Shown here: in pieces, positions 1-14,571 of the stretch
Position numbering within the stretch: the first letter of the stretch is position 1
How the letters are laid out: every line of letters begins with the position of its first letter
From: Spongiibacter taiwanensis
GTDB taxonomy: Bacteria > Pseudomonadota > Gammaproteobacteria > Pseudomonadales > Spongiibacteraceae
Length of the DNA stretch: 64,000 nt
Reading direction: 5' to 3'
Assembly (NCBI RefSeq): GCF_023702635.1
Contig: NZ_CP098455.1
Coordinates: 930,001-994,000, forward strand
Program-made: the position numbers and the translations under genes
The notes under the pieces: model-generated
Databases searched by the model: none
Told to the model about the DNA's origin: nothing
The model's input: the letters and a program-made list of their open reading frames with translations, nothing else

Positions 1-1551
1 CCCCATCCGCTACCGGCCCCAGAGGGCTATCGCAATGCCGCGCCGGATTCAGTCAATGATCTGCTACGCCCCGAACAGGTACTGGGCGACGATTGGCTGA
101 GCACCGACCCGCGAGTGGCCTGGCTGGAAAAATGGCTGCTGCAGATGGAGGACGAAAAAGTTCTACTGATCTGTGCCCAGGCCGACACCGCCCAAGATCT
201 GGAATTGTATCTACGCCTGCGCCGGGGTATCGCCAGCGCCGTGTTTTTTGAGGGCCTGAGCCTGGTCGAGCGCGACCGGGCCGCCGCCTATTTTGCCGAC
301 CCGGAAGATGGCGCCCAGCTGCTGGTGTGCTCGGAGATTGGCAGTGAGGGTCGCAACTTTCAGTTTGCCCAGCATCTGGTGCTGTTTGATCTGCCCTGGC
401 ACCCCGATCTGCTGGAGCAGCGTATTGGTCGCCTCGACCGCATCGGCCAACAGGGCGATATCCAGCTCCATGTCCCCTTCTACGAGAACAGCCCCCAGGC
501 ATTGATGCTGCGCTGGTATGAACAGGCGCTGGGTATTTTCGACGCGCCCTGCACCGTCGGCGATGCCATGGTGAAAGCCTTCGGCCATTCCCTGCAGGCT
601 TTGTTGTTACAGCCCGCGCCTGCCGCAAGCGAAGTGGACACCCTGTTTAATCAGGCTCGGGAAACCGTTGCCGAACTGCGCGACAATTTAAGCCGGGGCC
701 GTAACCGCCTGCTCGAACTCAACTCCTGCAAACCCCTGGAGGCTGCAGAGCTGGTTGCCCAGCTGGAGGCCGAGCAGCGCAGCGACGCCCTGGCCAACTA
801 CCTCGACATTTTTGCCGACCAATTCGGTCTTGAACACGAAGAACACAGCGAGAATGCGGTGATTCTGCGCCCCGGCGACCACATGCAGATTGAGGCCCTG
901 CCCCACCTGCCCGAAGAGGGACTGACCGGCACCTTTGACCGCCAGCGCGCCCTCAGCCGTGAAGATATGGTTTACCTGAGCTGGGAGCATCCCCTGCTGC
1001 GAAGTGCCATGGACGTGATCATGACCAGTGACTTCGGCAGCGCGTCACTGTGTACCCTGCCCGTCAAGGGCCTGAAGTCCGGCACCCTGTTGTTGGAAGT
1101 GTTCTTTAATCCCAGCCTCAACGCGCCGGCCTGGCTGCAGCTGCAACGCCAGCTGCCCGGTCACTGCCTGCGTCTGGTCATTGACGACCAGCACCGGGAT
1201 TTAAGTCAGGCGGTGGCCCACAGCAAACTGAATCAACTGTGCAAAGGCGTAAAGAAAACCCTCGCCCCCGCCCTGCTCCGTCAGGTGCGAGAACCCCTCG
1301 GCAAAATGATTCAACACCTCGAAGCACTGGCCCAAACGGCGAGTGGCCAGTGGCAACAGCAAGCACTGGAGAACTACCGGCAAGAGCGCGACGAGGAGCG
1401 GCAACGGCTGGAGAATCTCAGCCAGCGCAACCCAGACATTGACGCCGCCACCCTGGCAAGTTTTGATAGTGACACTGAACGGGGTGAACAGGCGCTATCT
1501 TCCCTGCAACTCAATATGGCCGCCTTGCGCTTGGCCGTGGTCAGCAACTAG
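1..1551 (+). CDS. rapA: RNA polymerase-associated helicase RapA, C-terminal part (5' end outside window)
   Basis: This is the 3' half of the SWI2/SNF2-type ATPase that binds RNA polymerase and recycles it after transcription. The reading frame is open from base 1, so the N-terminal helicase lobe lies upstream of the window. The visible part starts with a stretch typical of RapA (LLRPEQVLGDDWL), followed by the second helicase lobe: motif V region (GSEGRNFQFAQHLV) and motif VI (QRIGRLDRIGQ). The rest is the RapA-specific C-terminal domain, ending at TAG. The motif order and the C-terminal extension separate it from other SNF2 helicases. A small gene begins 10 bp after the stop. Confidence 0.95.
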   Translation, partial: PHPLPAPEGYRNAAPDSVNDLLRPEQVLGDDWLSTDPRVAWLEKWLLQMEDEKVLLICAQADTAQDLELYLRLRRGIASAVFFEGLSLVERDRAAAYFADPEDGAQLLVCSEIGSEGRNFQFAQHLVLFDLPWHPDLLEQRIGRLDRIGQQGDIQLHVPFYENSPQALMLRWYEQALGIFDAPCTVGDAMVKAFGHSLQALLLQPAPAASEVDTLFNQARETVAELRDNLSRGRNRLLELNSCKPLEAAELVAQLEAEQRSDALANYLDIFADQFGLEHEEHSENAVILRPGDHMQIEALPHLPEEGLTGTFDRQRALSREDMVYLSWEHPLLRSAMDVIMTSDFGSASLCTLPVKGLKSGTLLLEVFFNPSLNAPAWLQLQRQLPGHCLRLVIDDQHRDLSQAVAHSKLNQLCKGVKKTLAPALLRQVREPLGKMIQHLEALAQTASGQWQQQALENYRQERDEERQRLENLSQRNPDIDAATLASFDSDTERGEQALSSLQLNMAALRLAVVSN

Positions 1552-1561
1552 GGGGCCCGCG

Positions 1562-1849
1562 ATGTTTCTGTTTTCCGTCAATGCCGTATCCAAATCCACC
1601 CAAGGCGATTTCAAAGAGGGAGAAGATGTCCCCTTTATCGTCTACATTCACTTTGCTGACCTGTTTGGCGCCGAGCAATTGGCCAAACTGCTAGTCATGC
1701 GGGAGGGGTTTCGGGACGTCAAAATCGAAAAGCGCAAGCACCTCGATGACAAGGTGTTAATGGACAATGACAGCGGCCTGGGACGCGATCCGCAGATTCA
1801 GGAAGCACTGAAGAAGGGCTATTGCATTCAGGCGTTTAGTGCCCACTAG
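1562..1849 (+). CDS. small conserved-looking hypothetical protein (95 aa)
   Basis: I do not recognise this family. The frame stays open upstream inside rapA, but ATG at 1562 lies just after the rapA stop and gives a compact, well-folded-looking protein. It begins MFLFSVNAVSKSTQGDFKEG and has a mixed hydrophobic/charged pattern with no signal peptide or membrane segment, so it is probably a cytosolic alpha/beta protein. The 10-bp gap to rapA suggests co-transcription. Base composition matches its neighbours. No function is proposed. Confidence 0.65.
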   Translation: MFLFSVNAVSKSTQGDFKEGEDVPFIVYIHFADLFGAEQLAKLLVMREGFRDVKIEKRKHLDDKVLMDNDSGLGRDPQIQEALKKGYCIQAFSAH

Positions 1850-1921
1850 CTACAAGACACCAGGCCGGGCACACTCGCGCGACTCGTCAATGCTCACCAA
1901 CACCTAAGAAGTAAACGCGGG

Positions 1922-1943
1922 CCGCTGCCAACAGGGGCAGCGG
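1922..1943. terminator. GC-rich hairpin between convergent genes
   Basis: An 8-bp perfect stem (CCGCTGCC / GGCAGCGG, 6-nt loop) lies between the rightward gene ending at 1849 and the leftward gene ending at 2007. It has no clear T-tract, so a terminator role is inferred mainly from its convergent position. Confidence 0.35.
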
Positions 1944-2006
1944 TGGGCTAAGTTAAGTGGCCCAGTAAAACAGACCACTCTGCAACTCAACTGACCAAAC
2001 TGCAGC

Positions 2007-2606
2007 TCACTGAAAAATCCGCGGTGTTCGCTTTTTCTCCTGCCCGCGCTCACTACCGCCCAATGAGCGACCGGGGCGCTTGGATTGCCAGCCATCATTC
2101 ACCCGCCCCCGCGTATTGGCGTGCGGCTGACTATTCTGCCGGTGATCCCGACCACCCTCATCCCGACCACCGCGATCATGCCCACCCAGAAAGCGATTAT
2201 CTCGATCGCGGTCTCCAGCGAGCGGGTGACGGTCGCCGCCCCGATCTTTGCCGCGATCACCATCACGACGGTCACGCTGATCGCGGTTATGTCCTTGGTC
2301 ACGGTCGTGGTTATCTCGCTGGCGATCGTCGCCTCGCCAGCGTGAATCCCGGTCATACTGAATATCTACCCGGGTAGGCGAACGGCCACCCGAATGGCGG
2401 TGGCCATCATCCCGGCGATATTGATCACGGTCGCGGTAATAATAAATCCGGTCCCTGTGGTAGGGCTGGCCGTAATACTGGCCGTAGGAATGATAGTGGC
2501 CCCGGTAGCGTTCGTAACTGCTGTATCCGACACCGTGCGGATACACCGTACAACCGCTCAGAACCACAGCCCCCGCGATACCGATCAGCAACTTTGTCTT
2601 GATCAT
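2007..2606 (-). CDS. Arg/Asp-rich low-complexity lipoprotein
   Basis: Likely an envelope lipoprotein of unknown role. The N-terminus (MIKTKLLIGIAGAVVLSGC) is a lipoprotein signal peptide with lipobox LSGC. The mature part starts with a Tyr/Gly/His-rich stretch and then about 100 residues dominated by Asp, Arg, His and Gly in DRD/RDR-type runs. ATG at 2606 is preferred over the in-frame GTG at 2615 because GGAG at 2618-2615 is 8 nt from the ATG and only 0 nt from the GTG. The repetitive DNA leaves several other frames open over the same stretch; these are shadows. Similar DR-rich lipoproteins are widespread but uncharacterised. Confidence 0.75.
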   Translation of the reverse strand: MIKTKLLIGIAGAVVLSGCTVYPHGVGYSSYERYRGHYHSYGQYYGQPYHRDRIYYYRDRDQYRRDDGHRHSGGRSPTRVDIQYDRDSRWRGDDRQRDNHDRDQGHNRDQRDRRDGDRGKDRGGDRHPLAGDRDRDNRFLGGHDRGGRDEGGRDHRQNSQPHANTRGRVNDGWQSKRPGRSLGGSERGQEKKRTPRIFQ

Positions 2607-2978
2607 GACATGCACTCCGCACTACCTGATGGGGCAATAGATTCGCAAACGGGCGGAATGTTCGTCTGGTGCGGCCACACCACCCGGTTTTGCCACAATG
2701 ATCCATCGTCAATCGTGAATGCGGGCTGAATGCTGGCGAAGCTAGTAAATGTGTAATGGCGCTAGCGGCGTAACGGAGTTTGAATTTTGCAAATGAAGGC
2801 CGCCACCTCGAGAACGTACTACCGCATTAGTCACATAGCGGACAGTCACAGAGGACGAATTCTACAACCTCAACGACCAAGCTCTCCGGCAACTTTGGAG
2901 CGTAGCGGAAAAATTGTCCGAGTACAGCGCTGTTGTTATGTGATTATGCAGATAACTACTGAAAGTCATTTTTATTGC
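2607..2978. other. gene-free stretch, upstream of the lipoprotein gene and downstream of the Avs-like gene
   Basis: I see no gene here. It should hold the promoter of the leftward lipoprotein gene, though I see no strong -35/-10 pair. Composition shifts from GC-rich to AT-rich across it, marking the right-hand start of the AT-rich island. The 10-mer TTGTTATGTG at 2933-2942 occurs again at 7851-7860, on the other side of the large gene. Confidence 0.5.
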
Positions 2979-5900
2979 TCAATTTGTCGGCTCTTCCCTG
3001 TTGTACCATATACTGCCTACAGGTTTGCCATCTTTATATTTAAACAATCCACTATAAACCAAACGACCAAAAAACTGCCCTGCACCGGAAGAAAACATTT
3101 GCTTCTCCCCGCCTATCAACCAAACGATCTCCATATCATTAGCTTCAAGCCATTTCTGTAATTTCTCAGTTCGCATTAACGCATATGAAGGGCCGTATTC
3201 TTCGAGGCTTGGATCAAAAAATACAGGCTGCTCCTTGTGCTCCCATCGCCCCCATTGACCCGGGGGTCTAACCAAGTCCATTTCCTCAATCAGCTCCTTG
3301 ACTGGCATATGGAAATAAAGTGAACTATTAAGAGAATAATCTTTACCACCATCCTCCCACTCGTATTTAGCAAATGGAACAAGGTGTTCGACTGCAATCT
3401 GTTTCCTAAAGACTTCATCTGGCTCCCTCCACCCAGAAAGGTGGCGATATATTGGATGCCAAGGATATTCTCCTAAAAAGCCTTCGTGTTGAGTTGATGG
3501 CGCGCTAACTATGTGGGGATCGCAAAGCGCTTTTCCCTCAACTCCTTTAGCTAAAGAATCAAACTCTCCTTTACGGATTAAGATAGAATTAATTCTGAAC
3601 CACCCATCAAGATAGGGGCTTTCAGTTTTATCATCTGAATATTTCCTGTTTTCAGACCAAAAGCCATGTAAAACTAGCCAATTAGAATTGTCGGCAGGCA
3701 TTGTCCTTTGCAGTAACTCAGAGAATTCAGGCAAAACATCTTCGTCCCACAAAAATTTAGCCTTGGCTGCAGAGTCATTTTCATTTGGGAATGGGAAGCT
3801 GTAAGGTTGCCACCAAGTACAACGCTTGTTGTGATAGGTTTTGAATTCTCCAGATTGTCTTGCCCAGATAGTAGGGTCAATATCACGTTTGTATATTTGC
3901 CAAGGCCCTTCATAAATATCATCATCAGGAACATCGCTATAACCTCGATTAGTCCAATGGTAGTTATCAGAAAGTCTGGCCAAAAACTCATGGAGGGCCA
4001 TCCATTGGTATTTTTTCCCGACACGCTCCATTGCTCCACCACTGGGACCACCACCCCTTCCGTGTGAGCACATTCTTTCAAAATCACCAAATAGCTCTTC
4101 AGTCCATCCAAACTCATGAGCTCGCTTACACACCCATCTTTGAGCCCATTTCCTACTAAAGGCTGCTGGCCTATCATTACTGATCCCAGAAAGCCAACGA
4201 TAATACTCTTGTTGCTCGTCATTGAGTTGCGCGTTTATCCGGCAATCAAACTTTTCTCGTTCTTTTCTTTGATCCTCAAAGCTGCGCTTGTAGTCTTCGG
4301 AATCGCGCTCAATTCTTCTAATAGCCATTAATAACTCTTCTGGTGAAAGTGAAGAATTATCTGCTTTTATTAGCTCTAATTTTTCTAAATATTCTTCTTG
4401 CACATCGCCAGTTAATAGCTCGTGTGCAAATCGTACCTTGATCTCATGGCCATTTTCAATTTTTGGTAAGGCAATAGGTGTTGAAGACCAATTATGAACA
4501 CAGCCCATGGTGTAGTTTCCAAAGTCGCCAGGAAAACCCATTAAAGAACTTTTGATTCTTGATGAAAATTCGTCTCTAGCTATGCCTTCTATCTCTTTTT
4601 TGGATGGATTATCCAATTCTGGGGTGCTGTTATAAGGCGCCCTGAATTGTTCGGGAGCAATTTCTGCCGGAAGTACTCCAATATGCAAGGCATACTCTAA
4701 AATCCCGCGAGCATAATCTCTAAGCAGAATATGCGGCGTTGGTTCACCACCCCTAAATATCAAATTAAATGTGGTGCTCGCTATATCCTCAATAGTATCT
4801 TCTTTGTCGGTGTTGCAAACGACACCATATGCAACTGCATAAAGCCTTTCGGATAAGTATGTATCCTCTAGGCTCGAAAATGCTTTTAATAAGTCTTCAA
4901 CAAGATGGGGGTAAGAAGAAAGAATTCTAACCAGGGATTTCGTAGATCGATCCCTTATTCGCCTATTTGGAGTAGTCAAAAACCAAATAAGGACAATAGC
5001 ACAGAGCCTAATTCTTTCCTCTCCGACAGACTCTATTTCACCAGAATGTGCCCACTCAATAATTGTTCTAATGATGGATTCATATTCATCATCTTCTTCA
5101 GAGCTATCACCGTGTGCTATATGTATAGACCAAAAGTGGTCTCGTTCAGCAATCTCTTTCTTCGCAAGGTTTCGATGAAGCAACTCAGCATTCCATGGAT
5201 GATTGGGCTCCGTGGATAGTTTCAACAAAATATCCAGTGCTGGGTGATTGTAGGAATGACCTTCTAAGTTATTTAAAAGCTCCAGAGTCCTTTCAGAAAA
5301 AGAGCCTGGACTTCTCCACAAAACAGTATTCTGGAAAGTCTCATCAAGCTGCCACTTCCCAACTTCAATATCATCAGGCAGCAAATCCTCTAATTCCCTA
5401 TTGAAACGCTCAGTAATAATGATGGCCAATGCTTCGAATATTCCAGAAAAGCGGTAGTAACCATTATCTTTGAGTAATTGCCCTATAGAACCTCCATCTG
5501 AAAAGGCAGCTTCAATGTTATCTTCCCGATTTACTAATTCCTGAGCAATAAAATAATCACTAAATCGTTCATATGTGAATCTGATAATAAGATTTCCACG
5601 CTGTTCGCCTTTATAAGAAACATCCTCAGAAATAATGCCCTCATCGATCAATATATCGAAAAGGCTATCCCCATAATTCGGGTTTGGATCGTAATCATTG
5701 ACCAGCTTTCTAACATACGGCTTCAGAAGCCCCTCAAGATTATCTGGTAATAATTTTGAAGCGATATTGATAAGTGTGGACTTAACGATATTCTCATTCG
5801 GATTGAATCTTTTCTTTTTTGCTACAACCCTTTCAATACTTGAAACATAGAAATCAAATAATAAGGTAATAGAATTAAGCCCTTTTGGAAATGAGCTCTG

Positions 5901-7508
5901 GTTGTTTTGCCTTAGCGCTCGGCAGCATGTTTTCAAGAAAAGTGGATTTGTAAACTCAGGCGCCAATATTGGTGCGCTTGGTTTGGATATACCTTGCTGG
6001 GAAAGAAATTTCTCCGCAGCCCTATGCTCATGCCCTCTAAACCCATAATGCCCTATACGTGGCAACAAGCCTTCGTCTGCACTATCGGGAAGAATGTAAC
6101 TTAGATAAGTGCTGCGGCAACTAAACAGAACAGCAATATATGGGAATCGCGATAAATCCGACAAAAATCCTGTTATTTGGTTATGCCAGTCATCTCTATT
6201 ATTTCCCTCATTTATAGCATCAATGACAATGAGTGCTCTTGCCCCCGATGCTTCACCGGCTGCATCTATAGCACCTAAGACTTGGGAGCTTCTATAGTTT
6301 TTTAAGTCTAATGATTCCTTTAAAAAACCCGTTGGGTTCCCACCTTGATATTGAGCACCTAATAAAAACAATGTGGGTAAATTCATATTGATTCTATCAA
6401 AGCTCAAGTCACATAGGAGGTGTGATTTACCTATTCCTGCTTCCCCGTAAAGAAGTGCAGCTTTTGTCTGGGACGAGATGGCCTTTTTTTGCTTTATGAA
6501 AGATGCCAGCTCATCTATTACATTGTCTAATTTATACAGACTACTTCTAGAGTTATCATTTCTTTCAGACCAATCGATTTTATCATGGACATCTTTATAT
6601 ACTTCGGCATATAGTTTAGATATCTCTTCTAGTGAAGAGTTTATTTTTGAAATTCGATTGTGAAAATCCTTGCCTGCAATCCCTTTACCAAATTCATCCA
6701 AAAAATCATTAAGGTGATCATCTAAGATATTTATTCTTTCACTGTTTAATGAAATGTTTCCTTTTTTGTCTTCTTTTTTTAAAAAATAAATAACATCTGA
6801 GCTGGCGTCTTTTAGCTCTGATCTCCTTTCTTTGAGAAGATCCCACCATGAGAAATTCAAGCATAGGCCGTCAAAACTCTTTGCAATGGGAAGTTCAACA
6901 TGAAACTCAGGGGTATACCTATCTCCCAAGCTGTCTTGCGACCTTTTTGCGATATTTCTGAATACCCCTGTTCCGAGAAATGGTTCGTTAAACCAGTACA
7001 AAGCTCTACCAGAGTAAAGGGGGTCATCAATCGAAAGAAAAGTAGTAATCTCATGCTTACCCCAGTATGAGAATGTAATTTTACGAGCAACAGCATTTGC
7101 TTGGCCCTCCCACTTTTTAATGTGTTCTAGCCACTCATCTTCGACAGAAACTACTTTTTTTCCACCTTTTCCTTTCTTTCTGCTATCAGCTTTATCTAGA
7201 GGTAAGCAGACAATATAATGTGTTAACTTGGGGTGCTTTTCTAAGGCTGTAGTAAATGATTCATCTATTTGTTGCCAACGGGAGGAGTTCATTCCATCTA
7301 AAAAATATTTAGCTTGCCAACATATTTCCGAGTCATTTTCAAGAATCCAGTAACATTCAACACCGGCATCACCTCCAGCGCCATCCTTTTTAATGAACCG
7401 CTTTCCATCATCTGGTTTTTGAAGATGGGCAATTTGGCAAATCAACTCTTCAAAGCCTGAGTTTTTACTACCATCATGTGTTCTAATTTGAGAGAAGTTA
7501 ATTTCCAT
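2979..7508 (-). CDS. Avs-like STAND NTPase with N-terminal PD-(D/E)XK-type nuclease (putative anti-phage defence)
   Basis: A 1,509-residue protein with the layout of Avs (AVAST) defence proteins, which sense conserved phage proteins and then cut DNA. Residues about 1-160 look like an Mrr/Cap4-type nuclease: GFEEL near 18-22, GGDAGVE with D47 and E51, and WQAK with Q65 and K67. A STAND ATPase follows: Walker A GEAGIGKS (355-362), Walker B IVIDAINE (427-434), a sensor-type Arg in FSCRS (R465) and NPLFLK (521-526). The remaining ~950 residues have no membrane segment and would be the helical sensor region. ATG at 7508 gives a typical start. The gene is markedly more AT-rich than its neighbours and stands alone, which suggests horizontal transfer. 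The nuclease-STAND layout and length fit Avs4 best, but I cannot separate Avs4 from other nuclease-bearing Avs types by eye. Confidence 0.72.
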
Positions 7509-7593
7509 ATAAAGTCTTAAATAACTGAATGTTTATTGGCTGGTTAGTAGCCCCGGGTGTTAGTCAATTATCCAGTAGGTGTATTACGCATAA

Positions 7594-7771
7594 GAGGCTG
7601 TAGAAAAACTAGAACCTCTCTAAAAATCAAACTCACCATGCGCTCCTATGCAAAATCCAGAGTATTTGCGCAATAGACTGTTCCCTTAATTTCAAAAAAT
7701 AGCTCGATTTTTAGATCAAAAAAAGATCACACGACGAGCCACTAATCTGCTTTTAGTTTTTCTGCAGCCTC
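7594..7771. repeat. MITE/IS remnant with 17-bp terminal inverted repeats
   Basis: The ends 7594-7610 and 7755-7771 are inverted copies matching at 16 of 17 positions (GAGGCTGTAGAAAAACT versus the complement of the right end). The 178-bp interior has no open reading frame of note. This fits a miniature inverted-repeat element or the joined ends of a deleted IS. I see no clear target duplication and cannot name the parent family. Confidence 0.6.
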
Positions 7772-7785
7772 ACACGCCGTGTTTT

Positions 7786-7864
7786 GGGGCGCCGGAGCGC
7801 CAGCGAAGGCGTCCCAGCAGAGCGGCTTTCTGCGCTGCGACAACAACACTTTGTTATGTGTTGT
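7786..7864. repeat. GC-rich block of hairpins in AT-rich DNA
   Basis: A stem GGGGCGCC (7786-7793) / GGCGTCCC (7808-7815), 7 of 8 paired plus one wobble, is followed by ACAACAC (7843-7849) / GTGTTGT (7858-7864). It abuts the right end of the MITE remnant. It could be a degraded recombination site or part of an older mobile element; function unknown. Confidence 0.4.
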
Positions 7865-8730
7865 CTTTCTAATCTTTCTAACATAGCATTTGCCCCGCTA
7901 GTCCCCGCACTGGGAGGGGGTGTTGAAAAGGAGGATACCATTTTGGCCAAATTTTTGACTTCCCCATTACTGGCCCAAACGGAGGAAGGTTTGGCTTGTA
8001 GCTAATGGGGATACGGTAGAGGGGAAGGGTTCTGGGGAATCTACGCGGAAGTCTCTTGTTTTGGGTGAAATACTCATTCAATAAATATCCGCGGTGAACC
8101 CGGTTTCCCGGCTAAATTGTTACAAGTAAACGCCTGCCTATATATGCATAGGCGAAAGCAATACAAGCCCCAGAGTTTAGCCACTCCCTTCGATTCACAT
8201 TAACCTGAAATTCCTCGTGACATATAACAGCATTATTATAAAGACCGGGGCCTTATATCACTGAGGCTCCCTATCTAGGGGACTAAATTTGGAATGACGT
8301 CCGAAATCCTTGCTACTTCATGGACTTGGGCACATTTTGTGGAATCAGTGATTGATATTAGCAAGACCAGGTCCCTCTATCTGATTTAAGCTCCTTTTCA
8401 CCTGATCATATACCGACTCACATAAAAATCAATAAGTTAGCATCAGCAAAAAGGTGATAGTGAGCTTGTGGCTCCTGAAAAAAGAGAAAGTGGCGATTTG
8501 GGAGCAGTTTTGTTTTCGCCGAAGGAGCCTTGATGACTGTCTGCTTCTGACCAGCAACAGACCTTGACCCCGACAGAACTACATTCCACTCCAGTCGCTC
8601 AGTGGGAGTTCGTCAAGTATGACTTTTAAATGCATACCATCAAATACAAGGATTCATGCTGGGGCGGTGGAGCTGAGTAAACATAGCCAGCGCGTGTGCG
8701 CTGTAAAAGAAGCTTTCGCTTTACCGGCAG

Positions 8731-9051
8731 TCATCCAGGAGCAACCACAAAATACGGATTACCCAGCGGGTCTACCAGGCAGGCATAAAATGCTTCGGTA
8801 AAACGTTGCAGTTCATCGTCGCGGTAGTCGCTGAGCAGTAGCCGGGGGAAGTTACTCTCTACCATGCAGCCATCGGTTTGCTCATGTACGGCGGCAATAC
8901 AGTCCGGGTCGTCGCTGCCGCAGAGTTCGACCAGGCGTTGCACAAGGCTGCGTTTGAAGAAGAACTCGCCGACATCGCCCCGGGTACAACCACTGAGGGC
9001 AAGCGGGCCGCACACTAGAACAAAAATGATCACCTGCCGATACGCAGCCAC
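8731..9051 (-). CDS. small lipoprotein of unknown function (106 aa)
   Basis: The N-terminus is a lipoprotein signal peptide with a long hydrophobic core and lipobox LSGC, so the mature protein should be anchored in the envelope. The mature part has four cysteines, perhaps two disulfides, and no family I recognise. Start is GTG at 9051, with a GAGAG-type ribosome site about 7 nt upstream. GC-rich composition returns here, so this gene belongs to the host backbone rather than the AT-rich island. It is separated from the upstream oxidoreductase gene by a strong terminator. Confidence 0.6.
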   Translation of the reverse strand: MAAYRQVIIFVLVCGPLALSGCTRGDVGEFFFKRSLVQRLVELCGSDDPDCIAAVHEQTDGCMVESNFPRLLLSDYRDDELQRFTEAFYACLVDPLGNPYFVVAPG

Positions 9052-9150
9052 TGATTTTCTCTCACCGATATTTCACGCAACCCTAGCCCGCCGCAGGGAT
9101 GAAGGCAAGATAACCCGTACCCCTTCTGCTTAGAAAAATGACAGGCATAA

Positions 9151-9178
9151 AAAAACGCGCTGATTAAAGCGCGTTTTA
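9151..9178 (-). terminator. rho-independent terminator after the leftward beta-oxidation operon
   Basis: Perfect 10-bp stem AAAACGCGCT (9152-9161) / AGCGCGTTTT (9168-9177), 6-nt loop, followed on the minus strand by a run of T. It lies 20 bp past the stop of the nitronate monooxygenase-like gene, the last gene of that operon. Confidence 0.9.
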
Positions 9179-9197
9179 TGCTGAGCTTATTTTCCGC

Positions 9198-11424
<2,227 letters not shown>

Positions 11425-11459
11425 CTTGTTGTCCTCTATCGCAGTTCAGTCGGTGGCAA

Positions 11460-12224
11460 TTACTGCCCGGTCCAGTTGGGGGCGCGCTTTTCAGCAAAGG
11501 CCTTGGCACCCTCAATGGCGTCTTTGCTGGAGAACACGGGATCAATAATGCTCGCCTGCTTTTTGAACATCTCTTCGGTCGACCAATCCTGGGACTCGTC
11601 GATGACTTGTTTGGAAGCCATAACGGCCAGCGGGCCATTGGCCGCAATCGTCCGGGCCAGGGCCATCGCGCCATCCAGCGTTTCACCCTTGGCCGCAATG
11701 CGATTCACCAGGCCAAGCTCATAGGCGCGCTGGGCGCTGATAAATTCACCGGTCAGCGCCAACTCTTTGGCAATACGCGGCGGAATCTGGCGAGGCAGGC
11801 GCATCAAGCCACCGGCAGCGGCAGCCAGGCCACGCTTGGTTTCCGGGATACCGAACTTGGCGTTCTCGGCGACTACAATCAGATCGCAGCTCAGGGCCAA
11901 TTCACAGCCACCGGCCAGCGCATAGCCCTCAACCGCGGCAATCAAGGGTTTGCGGGGTGGCTGTTCACACAGGCCCGCAAAGCCCCGGCCACGCACCATC
12001 GGCAACTCGCCGCTGACAAAAGCCTTCAAATCCATACCGGCACAAAAGGTATTGTCGGCGCCGGTCAGTATGGCCGCGCGAATGTCCGGATCGCTGTCCA
12101 GCTTCTCCATCGCCTCGGCAATGCCTACCGCCACCGCTTTATTGACCGAGTTTTTGGCCTCGGGACGGTTGATAGTGACGACCATGATGCCGTCTTCGAC
12201 ACTCACCAGAACTGCGTCTGTCAT
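11460..12224 (-). CDS. enoyl-CoA hydratase/isomerase (crotonase) family protein
   Basis: 254 residues with the crotonase fold: the first oxyanion-hole segment CAGMDL (61-66), the second GYALAGGCELA (100-110) with E108 as a likely catalytic acid/base, and PETKRGL with E128. These support hydration of a 2-enoyl-CoA, although isomerase activity cannot be excluded. ATG at 12224 follows GGGGAGAAATAAC. Between it and the preceding SDR gene lies an inverted-repeat element (12271-12537), so this gene may have its own promoter or be read through that structure. Confidence 0.92.
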   Translation of the reverse strand: MTDAVLVSVEDGIMVVTINRPEAKNSVNKAVAVGIAEAMEKLDSDPDIRAAILTGADNTFCAGMDLKAFVSGELPMVRGRGFAGLCEQPPRKPLIAAVEGYALAGGCELALSCDLIVVAENAKFGIPETKRGLAAAAGGLMRLPRQIPPRIAKELALTGEFISAQRAYELGLVNRIAAKGETLDGAMALARTIAANGPLAVMASKQVIDESQDWSTEEMFKKQASIIDPVFSSKDAIEGAKAFAEKRAPNWTGQ

Positions 12225-12270
12225 GTTATTTCTCCCCGGCGCGGCTCAATGAGCGCCGTGTTAGGTGTTA

Positions 12271-12537
12271 AGGAGCCTCTGCACAACCCGGTAATGCCTC
12301 AGCGGAGTCTTTGGGGCGTACTGGCAAGGCGCTGCGCGAAGATCAAGGCTGGTTGTCCTTGGTGAGCGTAGCAACGCCGTCCAGTGCGCCCCAAAGGCCC
12401 GCCCTCCGGGGCTTTTCCTGAAAGCGCTCCGCAGCGTTGACGTTATTCGAAAGGCAACCAGCCTTCCCGCATAACGCCGCCTTGCGGAACACTTTCATGC
12501 AAAGCCTGAGGTATCACCGGGTTGTGCAGAGGCTCCT
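12271..12537. repeat. MITE-like element with 32-bp terminal inverted repeats and nested internal inverted repeats
   Basis: The ends 12271-12302 and 12506-12537 are inverted copies matching at 30 of 32 positions, beginning AGGAGCCTCTGCACAACCCG. Inside are two further inverted pairs: 12309-12324 with 12381-12396 (15 of 16) and 12345-12360 with 12451-12465. The element fills almost all of the 373-bp gap 12225-12597 and has no gene. It splits the SDR and crotonase genes of one operon. I see no exact target duplication. Confidence 0.8.
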
Positions 12538-12597
12538 GAAGTAAATCCCAGCGCGGAGCGGGTGCCGATCTGCGCCGACAGCCCGCCAATAGCCTTC

Positions 12598-13371
12598 TTA
12601 GCGAGGCTGCATGCGAATGGCGCCATCCAGACGGATGCATTCACCATTCATGTATTCGTTTTCGGCAATCATCACCGACAGGTGAGCAATTTCTTCAGGC
12701 CGGCCCAGACGCTGAGGGTTGACCACACTTTGCTCCAGCGACTTGTAAGCGGCTTCTGGCAGTGACTCAAACAGGGGCGTGTGAATCAGGCCGGGAACGA
12801 TGGTGTTCACGCGGATGCCGTAGGACGCCAGATCACGAGCCATCGGCAAGGTCATACCGACCACACCGCCCTTGGACGCGCTGTAAGCGAGCTGACCAAC
12901 CTGACCTTCGTAGGCTGCCACCGACGCCGTGTTGATGATCACACCACGGGCATTGGCACCGTCGTAGGGTTCGTTTTTGGCGATCTGCTCGGCAACCAGA
13001 CGGGCCACGTTAAAGGTACCCACCAGGTTTACATTGATAATCTTGGTGTATTCCGCAAAGGGGAAGGGACCATTCTTGCTCAGGGTCTTGGCCGCACTGC
13101 CGATGCCGGCATAGTTGTTACAAATGTGGATCGCGCCAAATTTGTCCATCACCGCGTTCACCGCATTTTGCACCGACTCCTCGTCGGCCACGTTCACATT
13201 GAAGAACGCCACCTTGTCTTCGCCCAGCTCGGCGACAATGGCATTGCCCCGCTCGGCGTTCATATCAAAAATGGCGACCTTGCCGCCTTTGGCGACATAA
13301 GCGCGCACGGTAGCTTCACCCAGACCGGAAGCACCGCCGGTGACCACGGCAACTTTATTGCTGATATCCAT
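12598..13371 (-). CDS. short-chain dehydrogenase, 3-hydroxyacyl-CoA dehydrogenase type II-like
   Basis: A 257-residue NAD-dependent SDR close in pattern to HSD17B10/type II 3-hydroxyacyl-CoA dehydrogenases. It has cofactor motif TGGASGLG (11-18), the catalytic set S150, Y163 and K167 (YSASK), and the conserved tail NGECIRLDGAIRM. The usual NNAG is NNYAG here. ATG at 13371 is chosen because GAGGAGAAC lies just upstream; a longer frame from 13401 has no such site. With the crotonase, thiolase and ACAD of the same operon it supplies the third step of a beta-oxidation turn. Confidence 0.88.
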   Translation of the reverse strand: MDISNKVAVVTGGASGLGEATVRAYVAKGGKVAIFDMNAERGNAIVAELGEDKVAFFNVNVADEESVQNAVNAVMDKFGAIHICNNYAGIGSAAKTLSKNGPFPFAEYTKIINVNLVGTFNVARLVAEQIAKNEPYDGANARGVIINTASVAAYEGQVGQLAYSASKGGVVGMTLPMARDLASYGIRVNTIVPGLIHTPLFESLPEAAYKSLEQSVVNPQRLGRPEEIAHLSVMIAENEYMNGECIRLDGAIRMQPR

Positions 13372-13425
13372 CGTTGTTCTCCTCAACACTAAATTGGCCA
13401 AGCGCTCAGCGGCGCTCAGCGGTGA

Positions 13426-14571
13426 CTATTTCGCAGTAAAAAAGGACCTTGCGATAATTTCTTTCATGATTTCCGAGGTGCCGGCGAGAATCCGACTGAT
13501 CCGCGCATTCGCGTAGAGATTACAAATCTCGTACTCCTGCATGTAACCGGCACCGCCGTGCAACTGCACACCGAGGTCGACCATCCGGCCTTCCACCTCT
13601 GAACAGTAGTACTTGGCCTGGGAAGCTGCCACCGAGGTGAGCTTGCCGTCGTTATGCTGCGCCACACACTGATCGACAAAGGCCTGGGCCACATCAATTT
13701 CGGTGCGCATATTGGCCATGGTAAAGCGCGTGTTCTGCTGCTGAGACAGCGGCCCGCCAAAGGCCTTGCGCTCTTCCACATAGGTTTTGGTGAGATCAAA
13801 AGCCGCATTGGCCGCCGCCAGCGAAATACAGGCAGTGATCAGGCGCTCTTCCGCCAGTCCCTGCATCAACTGCTGCATGCCGCGGCCCACTTCGCCAAGC
13901 ACGTTGGCCTTGGGCACCTTCACATCGTTAAAAAACAGTTCGGCGGTGTCCTGGGCCTTAAGCCCCAGCTTGTCCAGATTGCGTCCCCGCTCAAACCCCT
14001 CCATACCGCGCTCGACCAAAAACAAGGTCATTTCGCGGGGCTTCTCTGGATTAGTTTTGGCGGCCACAATCACCAAGTCAGCCAAAATGCCATTGGAGAT
14101 GTAGACCTTGGAGCCATTGAGCAACCAGTGATCGCCCTTGTCCTCGGCCCGGGTCTTCATGCCGGCCAGGTCGCTACCGGCGTCGGGCTCGGTCATGGCA
14201 ATGGCCATAATGCACTCGCCGGAGACGCAGCCGGGAATGTACTTGGCCTGCTGTTCGGGCGTACCAAAGTGTTTTAAATACGGCGCGACCAGACGACTGT
14301 GCAAGGTGTGGAAGAAACCCGGCTCACCCAGCTGACCGTCTTCCTCAATCATGATCTGCTGGTAGCGGAAGTCTTCTACACCCAGGCCACCAAAATCCTC
14401 GTCGGCCCAGGTGAGCAAATACCCCTGCTGGCCCATCTGCAGAAATTTTTCCCGCGGAACAATGCCGGCCTTGCGCCACTCTTCACGATGGGGAAGGACT
14501 TCCTGCTCCAGAAAGCGCCGGTAGGCTTCCCGAAATATTTGCTGATCTTCTGTGAAACAGGTGCGTAGCAC
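13426..14571 (-). CDS. acyl-CoA dehydrogenase
   Basis: FAD enzyme of 381 residues that introduces the 2,3 double bond in an acyl-CoA. Family motifs are visible: MAIAMTEPDAGSDLAG, the KVYISNG flavin-binding stretch, ERKAFGGPLSQQQNTRF and QLHGGAGYMQEYEI. The usual C-terminal catalytic Glu position reads LAGTSEI, and the base is probably the Glu in GLAEERLI, as in isovaleryl- and long-chain types. Start is GTG at 14571 with AGGAG 9 nt upstream. It is the first gene of the leftward operon ACAD-SDR-crotonase-thiolase-flavoprotein. Confidence 0.92.
   Translation of the reverse strand: MLRTCFTEDQQIFREAYRRFLEQEVLPHREEWRKAGIVPREKFLQMGQQGYLLTWADEDFGGLGVEDFRYQQIMIEEDGQLGEPGFFHTLHSRLVAPYLKHFGTPEQQAKYIPGCVSGECIMAIAMTEPDAGSDLAGMKTRAEDKGDHWLLNGSKVYISNGILADLVIVAAKTNPEKPREMTLFLVERGMEGFERGRNLDKLGLKAQDTAELFFNDVKVPKANVLGEVGRGMQQLMQGLAEERLITACISLAAANAAFDLTKTYVEERKAFGGPLSQQQNTRFTMANMRTEIDVAQAFVDQCVAQHNDGKLTSVAASQAKYYCSEVEGRMVDLGVQLHGGAGYMQEYEICNLYANARISRILAGTSEIMKEIIARSFFTAK

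Follow-up and report, generated by a model that had tools for sequence, protein, structure and literature searches.

An avs2 gene of Spongiibacter taiwanensis probably acquired as a single integron gene cassette

Avs2 has been described as a receptor with a target-recognizing C-terminus, an ATPase that forms oligomers with ATP, and an N-terminal effector that becomes activated (excerpts of PMC12724215 and PMC12931631). According to the same excerpts, the large terminase is recognized by Avs1-3, a Klebsiella Avs2 also appears to bind Ksap1, and nuclease Avs proteins kill the cell through cutting of phage and host DNA. Integrons are known as stores of small defense genes. The excerpted text of PMC12409362 describes integron defense systems as streamlined to small size, with larger, multi-gene ones absent. 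The locus reported here resembles the integron-cassette defense genes of Darracq 2025, Kieffer 2025, and Getz 2025 (via that excerpt) in that an anti-phage gene lies between attC sites. However, those genes are described there as small and streamlined, whereas the avs2 unit is 4.7 kb, lies outside the host array, and has decayed sites. Integron defense genes are presented in that excerpt as size-restricted, which makes an NLR-like receptor of 4.7 kb surprising as a cassette. We found no report of Avs2 in an integron in the literature searched, and what is new here is the integron cassette as carrier of avs2; this claim is a limited one, since Darracq, Kieffer, and Getz may already list Avs2 cassettes.

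The window analyzed here is the whole stretch of 64,000 bases at 930001-994000 of the genome. Within it, the ORF at 2979-7508 (minus strand) has an ATG start and encodes 1,509 amino acids without an internal stop. We found that its product is Avs2, a known kind of gene, with the order putative nuclease, STAND ATPase, and sensor, and we put the probability that this immune receptor was acquired as one integron gene cassette at roughly 0.88. The PADLOC Avs2 profile PDLC02164 matches the full length (1,728 bits, residues 1-1508), and five other PADLOC Avs2 profiles score 700-899 bits. The NCBIfam Avs2 profile (NF041813) is matched over positions 3-1316 of 1317 with 967 bits, which falls just below its naming cut-off of 1,000 bits. 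By sequence, the sole solved relative is Avs2 9o4e (E 8.7e-138, query residues 192-1499), while in Pfam only AAA_16 and NACHT match, both below their cut-offs. Compared to known Avs2 (AVAST type 2; PDLC02164, NF041813, 9o4e), the length, domain order, and full-length profile match are alike, and one difference lies in the proposed carriage of the window gene as an integron cassette. The initial annotation had recognized an Avs architecture, which our data narrow to Avs2. A non-defense ATPase is ruled out by the matches in PADLOC, NCBIfam, and 9o4e, the best profiles being those of Avs2.

Seven related loci (L002-L008) share 47-88% identity with the window protein. Their hosts are Salinivibrio (L002), Rhabdochromatium (L007), and metagenome-assembled genomes (MAGs) labeled Lentisphaeria, Parcubacteria, Pseudomonadaceae (L005), Gammaproteobacteria, and Thiomicrorhabdus, labels that may be wrong for single contigs. 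Since L005 is a MAG with a broken avs2 frame, its host and copy are uncertain. At E ≤ 0.001, avs2 matches were present in 2 of 57 relatives (own genome included where searched) and in none of the other 17 genomes of the genus. Samples of the class and the order contained matches in 4/369 and 4/390, respectively (E ≤ 1e-50, own genome included where searched), and the family of the Salinivibrio genome in 5/247 (E ≤ 1e-100). Matches were found in 75 of 72,556 plasmids, each with less than 60% identity; one scan of viral contigs gave no relatives, and 1 of 50,697 phage records gave a partial match. A Staphylococcus phage record (MG543995.1, 102844-104856) matches residues 645-1450, mostly sensor, with 27% identity, and is without the nuclease and the Walker motifs. 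In a tree of 15 rows, the window and Salinivibrio proteins are paired (100/98) and form a clade with L003, L004, and L006 (100/100), while the deep forks are weak. Values of dN/dS, calculated with a Nei-Gojobori script, are 0.18, 0.09, and 0.11 against L002, L003, and L004, respectively; L006 yielded no computable value. The GC content of the gene is 38.5-41.4% in all seven loci (partial genes in L007 and L008), with 37-60% in the remainder of each locus. Genes of HIT type adjoin avs2 in some loci: the match is clear in L002 (7440-7853, PF01230) and weak in L006 (12575-13222, CwfJ_C_1), and in L004 (3463-3885) a HIT-like motif was seen by eye where Pfam gives no match.

The gene had been described as the only coding content of an AT-rich island, gained alone from elsewhere, and we judge this description to be right. 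GC content is 0.38-0.43 across the five 1-kb bins of 3001-8000 versus 0.53-0.63 in the bins of 9001-64000, and GC3 is 0.35 for avs2 versus 0.50-0.74 for the remaining listed ORFs of at least 100 amino acids in the window. The data are consistent with nothing else being coding in the island: in the 1.2 kb upstream of avs2 the longest ORF is 73 amino acids (7784-8005), and nothing in Pfam or PADLOC matches it at E ≤ 0.001. The ORF list and the Pfam and PADLOC searches rule out a further gene in the island. A known structured RNA in 1500-9300 is ruled out by Rfam (none at E ≤ 1), and a tRNA as insertion point by ARAGORN, which detects no tRNA within the window.

The left side of avs2 holds rapA, a gene of 95 codons, and an ORF of 202 amino acids; on the right is a 106-aa ORF (both of these ORFs read as lipoproteins by eye), followed by genes for nitronate monooxygenase, thiolase, enoyl-CoA hydratase, an SDR, and acyl-CoA dehydrogenase (Pfam). 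Among ten neighboring ORFs, PADLOC matches only rapA, via its helicase part. Since rapA and the following 95-codon gene are present in 10/10 stretches fetched from relatives, genes resembling those at 10189-14571 are present in 1/10, and the best matches of 8600-10300 sit elsewhere in relatives, the location of avs2 is a synteny break. No exact empty site was found in the relatives' stretches. A non-coding repeat at 8218-8511 has copies in the same genome at 2129658-2129948 (83%) and 708900-709159 (70%).

DNA identity to the Salinivibrio (L002), Pseudomonadaceae MAG (L005), and Rhabdochromatium (L007) loci is 87-89% and ends abruptly just outside the gene. In a BLASTN comparison of window 1500-9300 with the seven loci (E ≤ 1e-3), homology extends over 2872-7593 in L005, 2881-7578 in L002, and 5586-7593 in L007, whose contig stops inside the gene; L003, L004, L006, and L008 match only to within about 30 bases of the gene. 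By eye and by script, the first bases of the unit are TTATGCG, with G immediately before them in L002, L005, and L007, which makes the start an integron crossover point (G|TT). The other end is also G|TT and falls within an attC-like site, both in the window and in L002 and L005. The window start is instead preceded by C, beside a 178-base element. The whole cassette spans 2874-7593 (minus strand), 4,720 bases with precise ends, and matches units of 4,719 bases in L005 and 4,718 bases in L002. The end of another attC precedes the unit in L002 and L005, and none is recognizable in L007. The 85-base leader from TTATGCG to the start codon (7509-7593, minus strand) has a similar 87-base counterpart in all three loci. 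The 178-base element (7594-7771; 21-base inverted ends, arms 90% complementary) fits exactly between the preceding attC and the beginning of the avs2 cassette, and a second copy is absent from the same genome at E ≤ 0.01. The initial annotation was correct about gain from elsewhere; it missed the attC sites that bound the gene and the likely integron cassette.

We searched for attC sites with a covariance model seeded with seven sites, four from the host's own array and three from L005. One of the latter, L005 2222-2293, lies just before avs2, and the seeds include no attC of an avs2 cassette. Across 21 sources (360,822 bases), the model gave 22 hits at E ≤ 1, of which seven are the seeds; its E-values are rough owing to a short calibration. 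In the 64-kb window it gave just two hits, which flank avs2 on its strand: the decayed attC of the avs2 cassette at 2868-2941 (minus strand; E 5.3e-6 in 360,822 bases) and the remnant of the preceding cassette's attC at 7770-7859 (minus strand; E 0.013 in 360,822 bases), which the 178-base element has truncated at the 3' end. The same two sites were found in 2500-9000 alone with filters off (E 9.6e-8 and 2.4e-4, respectively, in 6,501 bases). The attC downstream of avs2 was also hit in L002 (1.2e-13) and L005 (7.1e-12), so that avs2 has its own downstream attC in three loci, and L005 contains four sites in a single orientation. There were no model hits in L003, L004, L006, L007, or L008, nor in L051, L052, L053, L055, L068, L070, or L074, and L054 has one hit 2.3 kb beyond its avs2. 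Among motif scripts, the first was too strict and the second too loose (10 hits in the 54 kb of window 10001-64000). The third finds 2871-2938 with 2 hits in 780,000 shuffled bases, but it also reports 2 sites in window 10001-64000, plus 1-2 in several loci without a known array. The fourth, relaxed in one place, misses the window site and reports 3 sites in window 10001-64000; shuffled sequence of 1.65 million bases gives 20. Given these shortcomings, the attC case rests on the covariance model and the shared ends.

Folding of the attC bottom strand differed among sites. The window attC folds no better than its shuffles (z -0.02, 88/200 shuffles as good) and we therefore do not class the window cassette as still mobile, while 5/200 shuffles were as good for L002, 24/200 for L005, 27/200 for the site before avs2 in L005, and 2/200 and 0/200 for two sites of the host's own array. 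Since the window attC is decayed and the 178-base element cuts into the attC before it, the cassette is probably stranded, and the window avs2 is now probably fixed in the chromosome. The avs2 reading frame is not decayed. We asked whether the locus might be a silent or dying relic, i.e., of cassette origin and now unexpressed or inactive. The damaged attC sites, promoter-like sites at chance level (14 found versus 14.1 expected), and the lower expression described for cassettes distant from the array promoter (excerpt of PMC12409362) would fit such a relic, yet 1,509 codons without a stop, retained motif residues, and a leader similar in three relatives make it somewhat unlikely in our view.

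Returning to the putatively cassette-borne Avs2 receptor, the STAND ATPase comprises residues about 331-690 (5439-6518, minus strand), with sub-threshold matches to AAA_16 and NACHT. Walker A (GEAGIGKS, 355-362) and Walker B (IVIDAINE, 427-434) lie where first annotated, and G355, E356, G358-S362, I427, and I429-E434 are invariant in 5/5 full-length rows. The C-terminal sensor region, residues about 691-1509 (2982-5438, minus strand), aligns with Avs2 9o4e and shares 47.7-89.9% identity with four relatives. Its size, first given as ~950 residues, becomes about 820 under the present domain division. The first annotation also suggested that the sensor defines a distinct Avs branch. Such a branch is quite improbable: identity to the closest relatives on plasmids is about 30%, and tree support is good for the clade of 47-87% identity, but 6/6 Avs2 profiles match, five of them across most of the protein, and the sensor is alignable with a solved Avs2 (residues 192-1499 of the protein align). 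Furthermore, PDLC02164 is also the top match for Rhodothermus and Burkholderia proteins of ~30% identity, the annotated Rhodothermus Avs2 being about 30% identical to the window protein.

The N-terminal nuclease-like domain (residues 1-190; 6939-7508, minus strand) is the part without sequence alignment to 9o4e. D47, E51, Q65, and K67, which we take to be the PD-(D/E)XK residues, are at the positions first claimed and invariant in 8/8 aligned N-termini. The N-terminus alone matches the LmuA profile in 8/8 members and, weakly, the Avs4 profile in 7/8. An AlphaFold model from eight aligned rows (pLDDT 71.3, pTM 0.72) has the element order helix, three strands, helix, strand, helix, strand; a single-sequence fold of residues 1-345 was poor (pLDDT 44). 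A plain Foldseek search with the N-terminal model gave nothing at E ≤ 0.001, its top row being an unrelated fold, and when the N-terminal alignment was compared with PDB sequences and Pfam, all matches were weak and unrelated. On a second look by structural alignment, Avs4 8dgf ranked top (Z 9.4, 130 residues, 4.4 Å), followed by restriction and nicking enzymes mixed with an RNA polymerase subunit and acetyl-CoA carboxylase (Z 7.0-7.7) and by Can2, LmuA, and Cap4 (Z 6.3-6.6). The nuclease core is thus not missing from the predicted fold, the evidence for which is moderate, and fold and residues together suggest, with moderate confidence, a nuclease effector. The nuclease fold is shared with Avs4 (8dgf), and the likeness of the window protein to Avs4 is confined to the N-terminus. 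An Avs2-like protein at L059 aligns only from window residue 187 on and has a different N-terminus, which suggests an effector swap.

The host genome contains one integron integrase over the cut-off (2186115-2187062, minus strand; 417 bits), and the attC sites of its array begin on the integrase's other side in one orientation. avs2 lies 1.25 Mb from this integron. Integrases over the cut-off were present in 14 of the genus's 18 genomes and, among the 7 genomes from which the related loci come, in 3 (L005, L007, L008); the Salinivibrio genome gave no integrase match at E ≤ 1e-30. Other cassettes measure 410, 484, and 1,187 bases in the host's own array and 1,090 bases in L005.

A second Avs2 that resembles a cassette occurs in a genome from a different family of the same order (G472) and shares 54% identity with the window protein. 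It sits between G|TT points 4,890 bases apart, in a genome with an integrase of 394 bits. Upstream, the model hits 9409-9492 (1e-11) and 10589-10720 (0.0016) on the gene's strand. The site that ends the unit, 2719-2795, reaches only E 0.41 and the next one, 2181-2244, E 0.34, both on the gene's strand; 2719-2795 is also supported by script and folding (9/200 shuffles as good). By eye, a transposase-like insertion seems to split the attC preceding this avs2. Since L003 and L004 are nearer to the window protein yet show no attC, either capture happened twice or sites were lost.

We favor the cassette reading because L002 and L005 share both ends of the unit and L007 shares its start; because the window's two attC hits flank avs2 on its strand with a model lacking avs2-cassette seeds; because an intact integrase and array are present in the host, whose genus has integrases in most of its genomes; and because the 54% identical Avs2 sits between G|TT points in an attC-bearing stretch. 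The absence of matches in the 17 other genus genomes and the dN/dS of 0.09-0.18 against three relatives further support it as the best explanation. Points against it are the sub-cut-off NCBIfam score (967 < 1,000), the modest structural match, a window attC that folds no better than shuffles, the C before TTATGCG, a Salinivibrio genome with no integrase match at E ≤ 1e-30, the lack of attC hits in L003, L004, L006, and L008, and the broken L005 frame. Gain of Avs2 by another vehicle (transposon, phage, or homologous recombination) with attC-like sequences as chance neighbors is highly improbable, for although the inverted-repeat element of 178 bases borders the unit on one side, the attC of the window is of poor quality, and the L007 copy starts beside sequence without a detected attC, the start point is common to three loci and both ends to two, each at G|TT, the window's only two model hits flank avs2, and L005 has four sites in one orientation.

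For the window Avs2, what is known of the family suggests that the C-terminal sensor would bind a phage protein that is conserved, with the large terminase subunit as the likeliest target, that the STAND ATPase would then oligomerize with ATP, and that the N-terminal nuclease domains, brought together, would cut DNA and halt phage growth at the cell's cost. From the observed G|TT ends, an integron integrase presumably recombined the unit at these points, by which the 1,509-codon gene with its own attC may have been carried between bacteria; the window copy would then have come to sit far from the host integron, beside one other attC remnant, with both sites damaged. We somewhat favor the broader view that full-size NLR-like receptors spread among distant bacteria as oversized single-gene cassettes, in at least two Avs2 lineages, such that the small-size rule is not absolute. 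If true, a 1,509-codon single-cassette receptor would connect NLR-like immunity with a gene-capture machinery that is already known and help explain lone Avs2 genes in unrelated hosts, and the cassette size limit would become testable with existing integrase assays.

Further cassette-like features were observed in these genomes. A stretch of 6,788 bases between two array attC sites in L005 (7009-13797) contains a type I restriction R-subunit gene and further ORFs, and represents either a giant cassette of several genes or an insertion that came later. Two attC hits of the S. taiwanensis genome lie distant from the integrase (L073 6903-7030, minus strand, E 1.6e-5; L069 584-652, plus strand, E 5.2e-8) and are possible further scattered cassettes. 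A cassette of its own integron (L071 18661-19746, plus strand; genome about 2,188,661) codes for a protein of 361 amino acids that has a TIR domain of the CAP12/Pycsar type (PF10137, E 9.8e-15) and is likely a defense effector.
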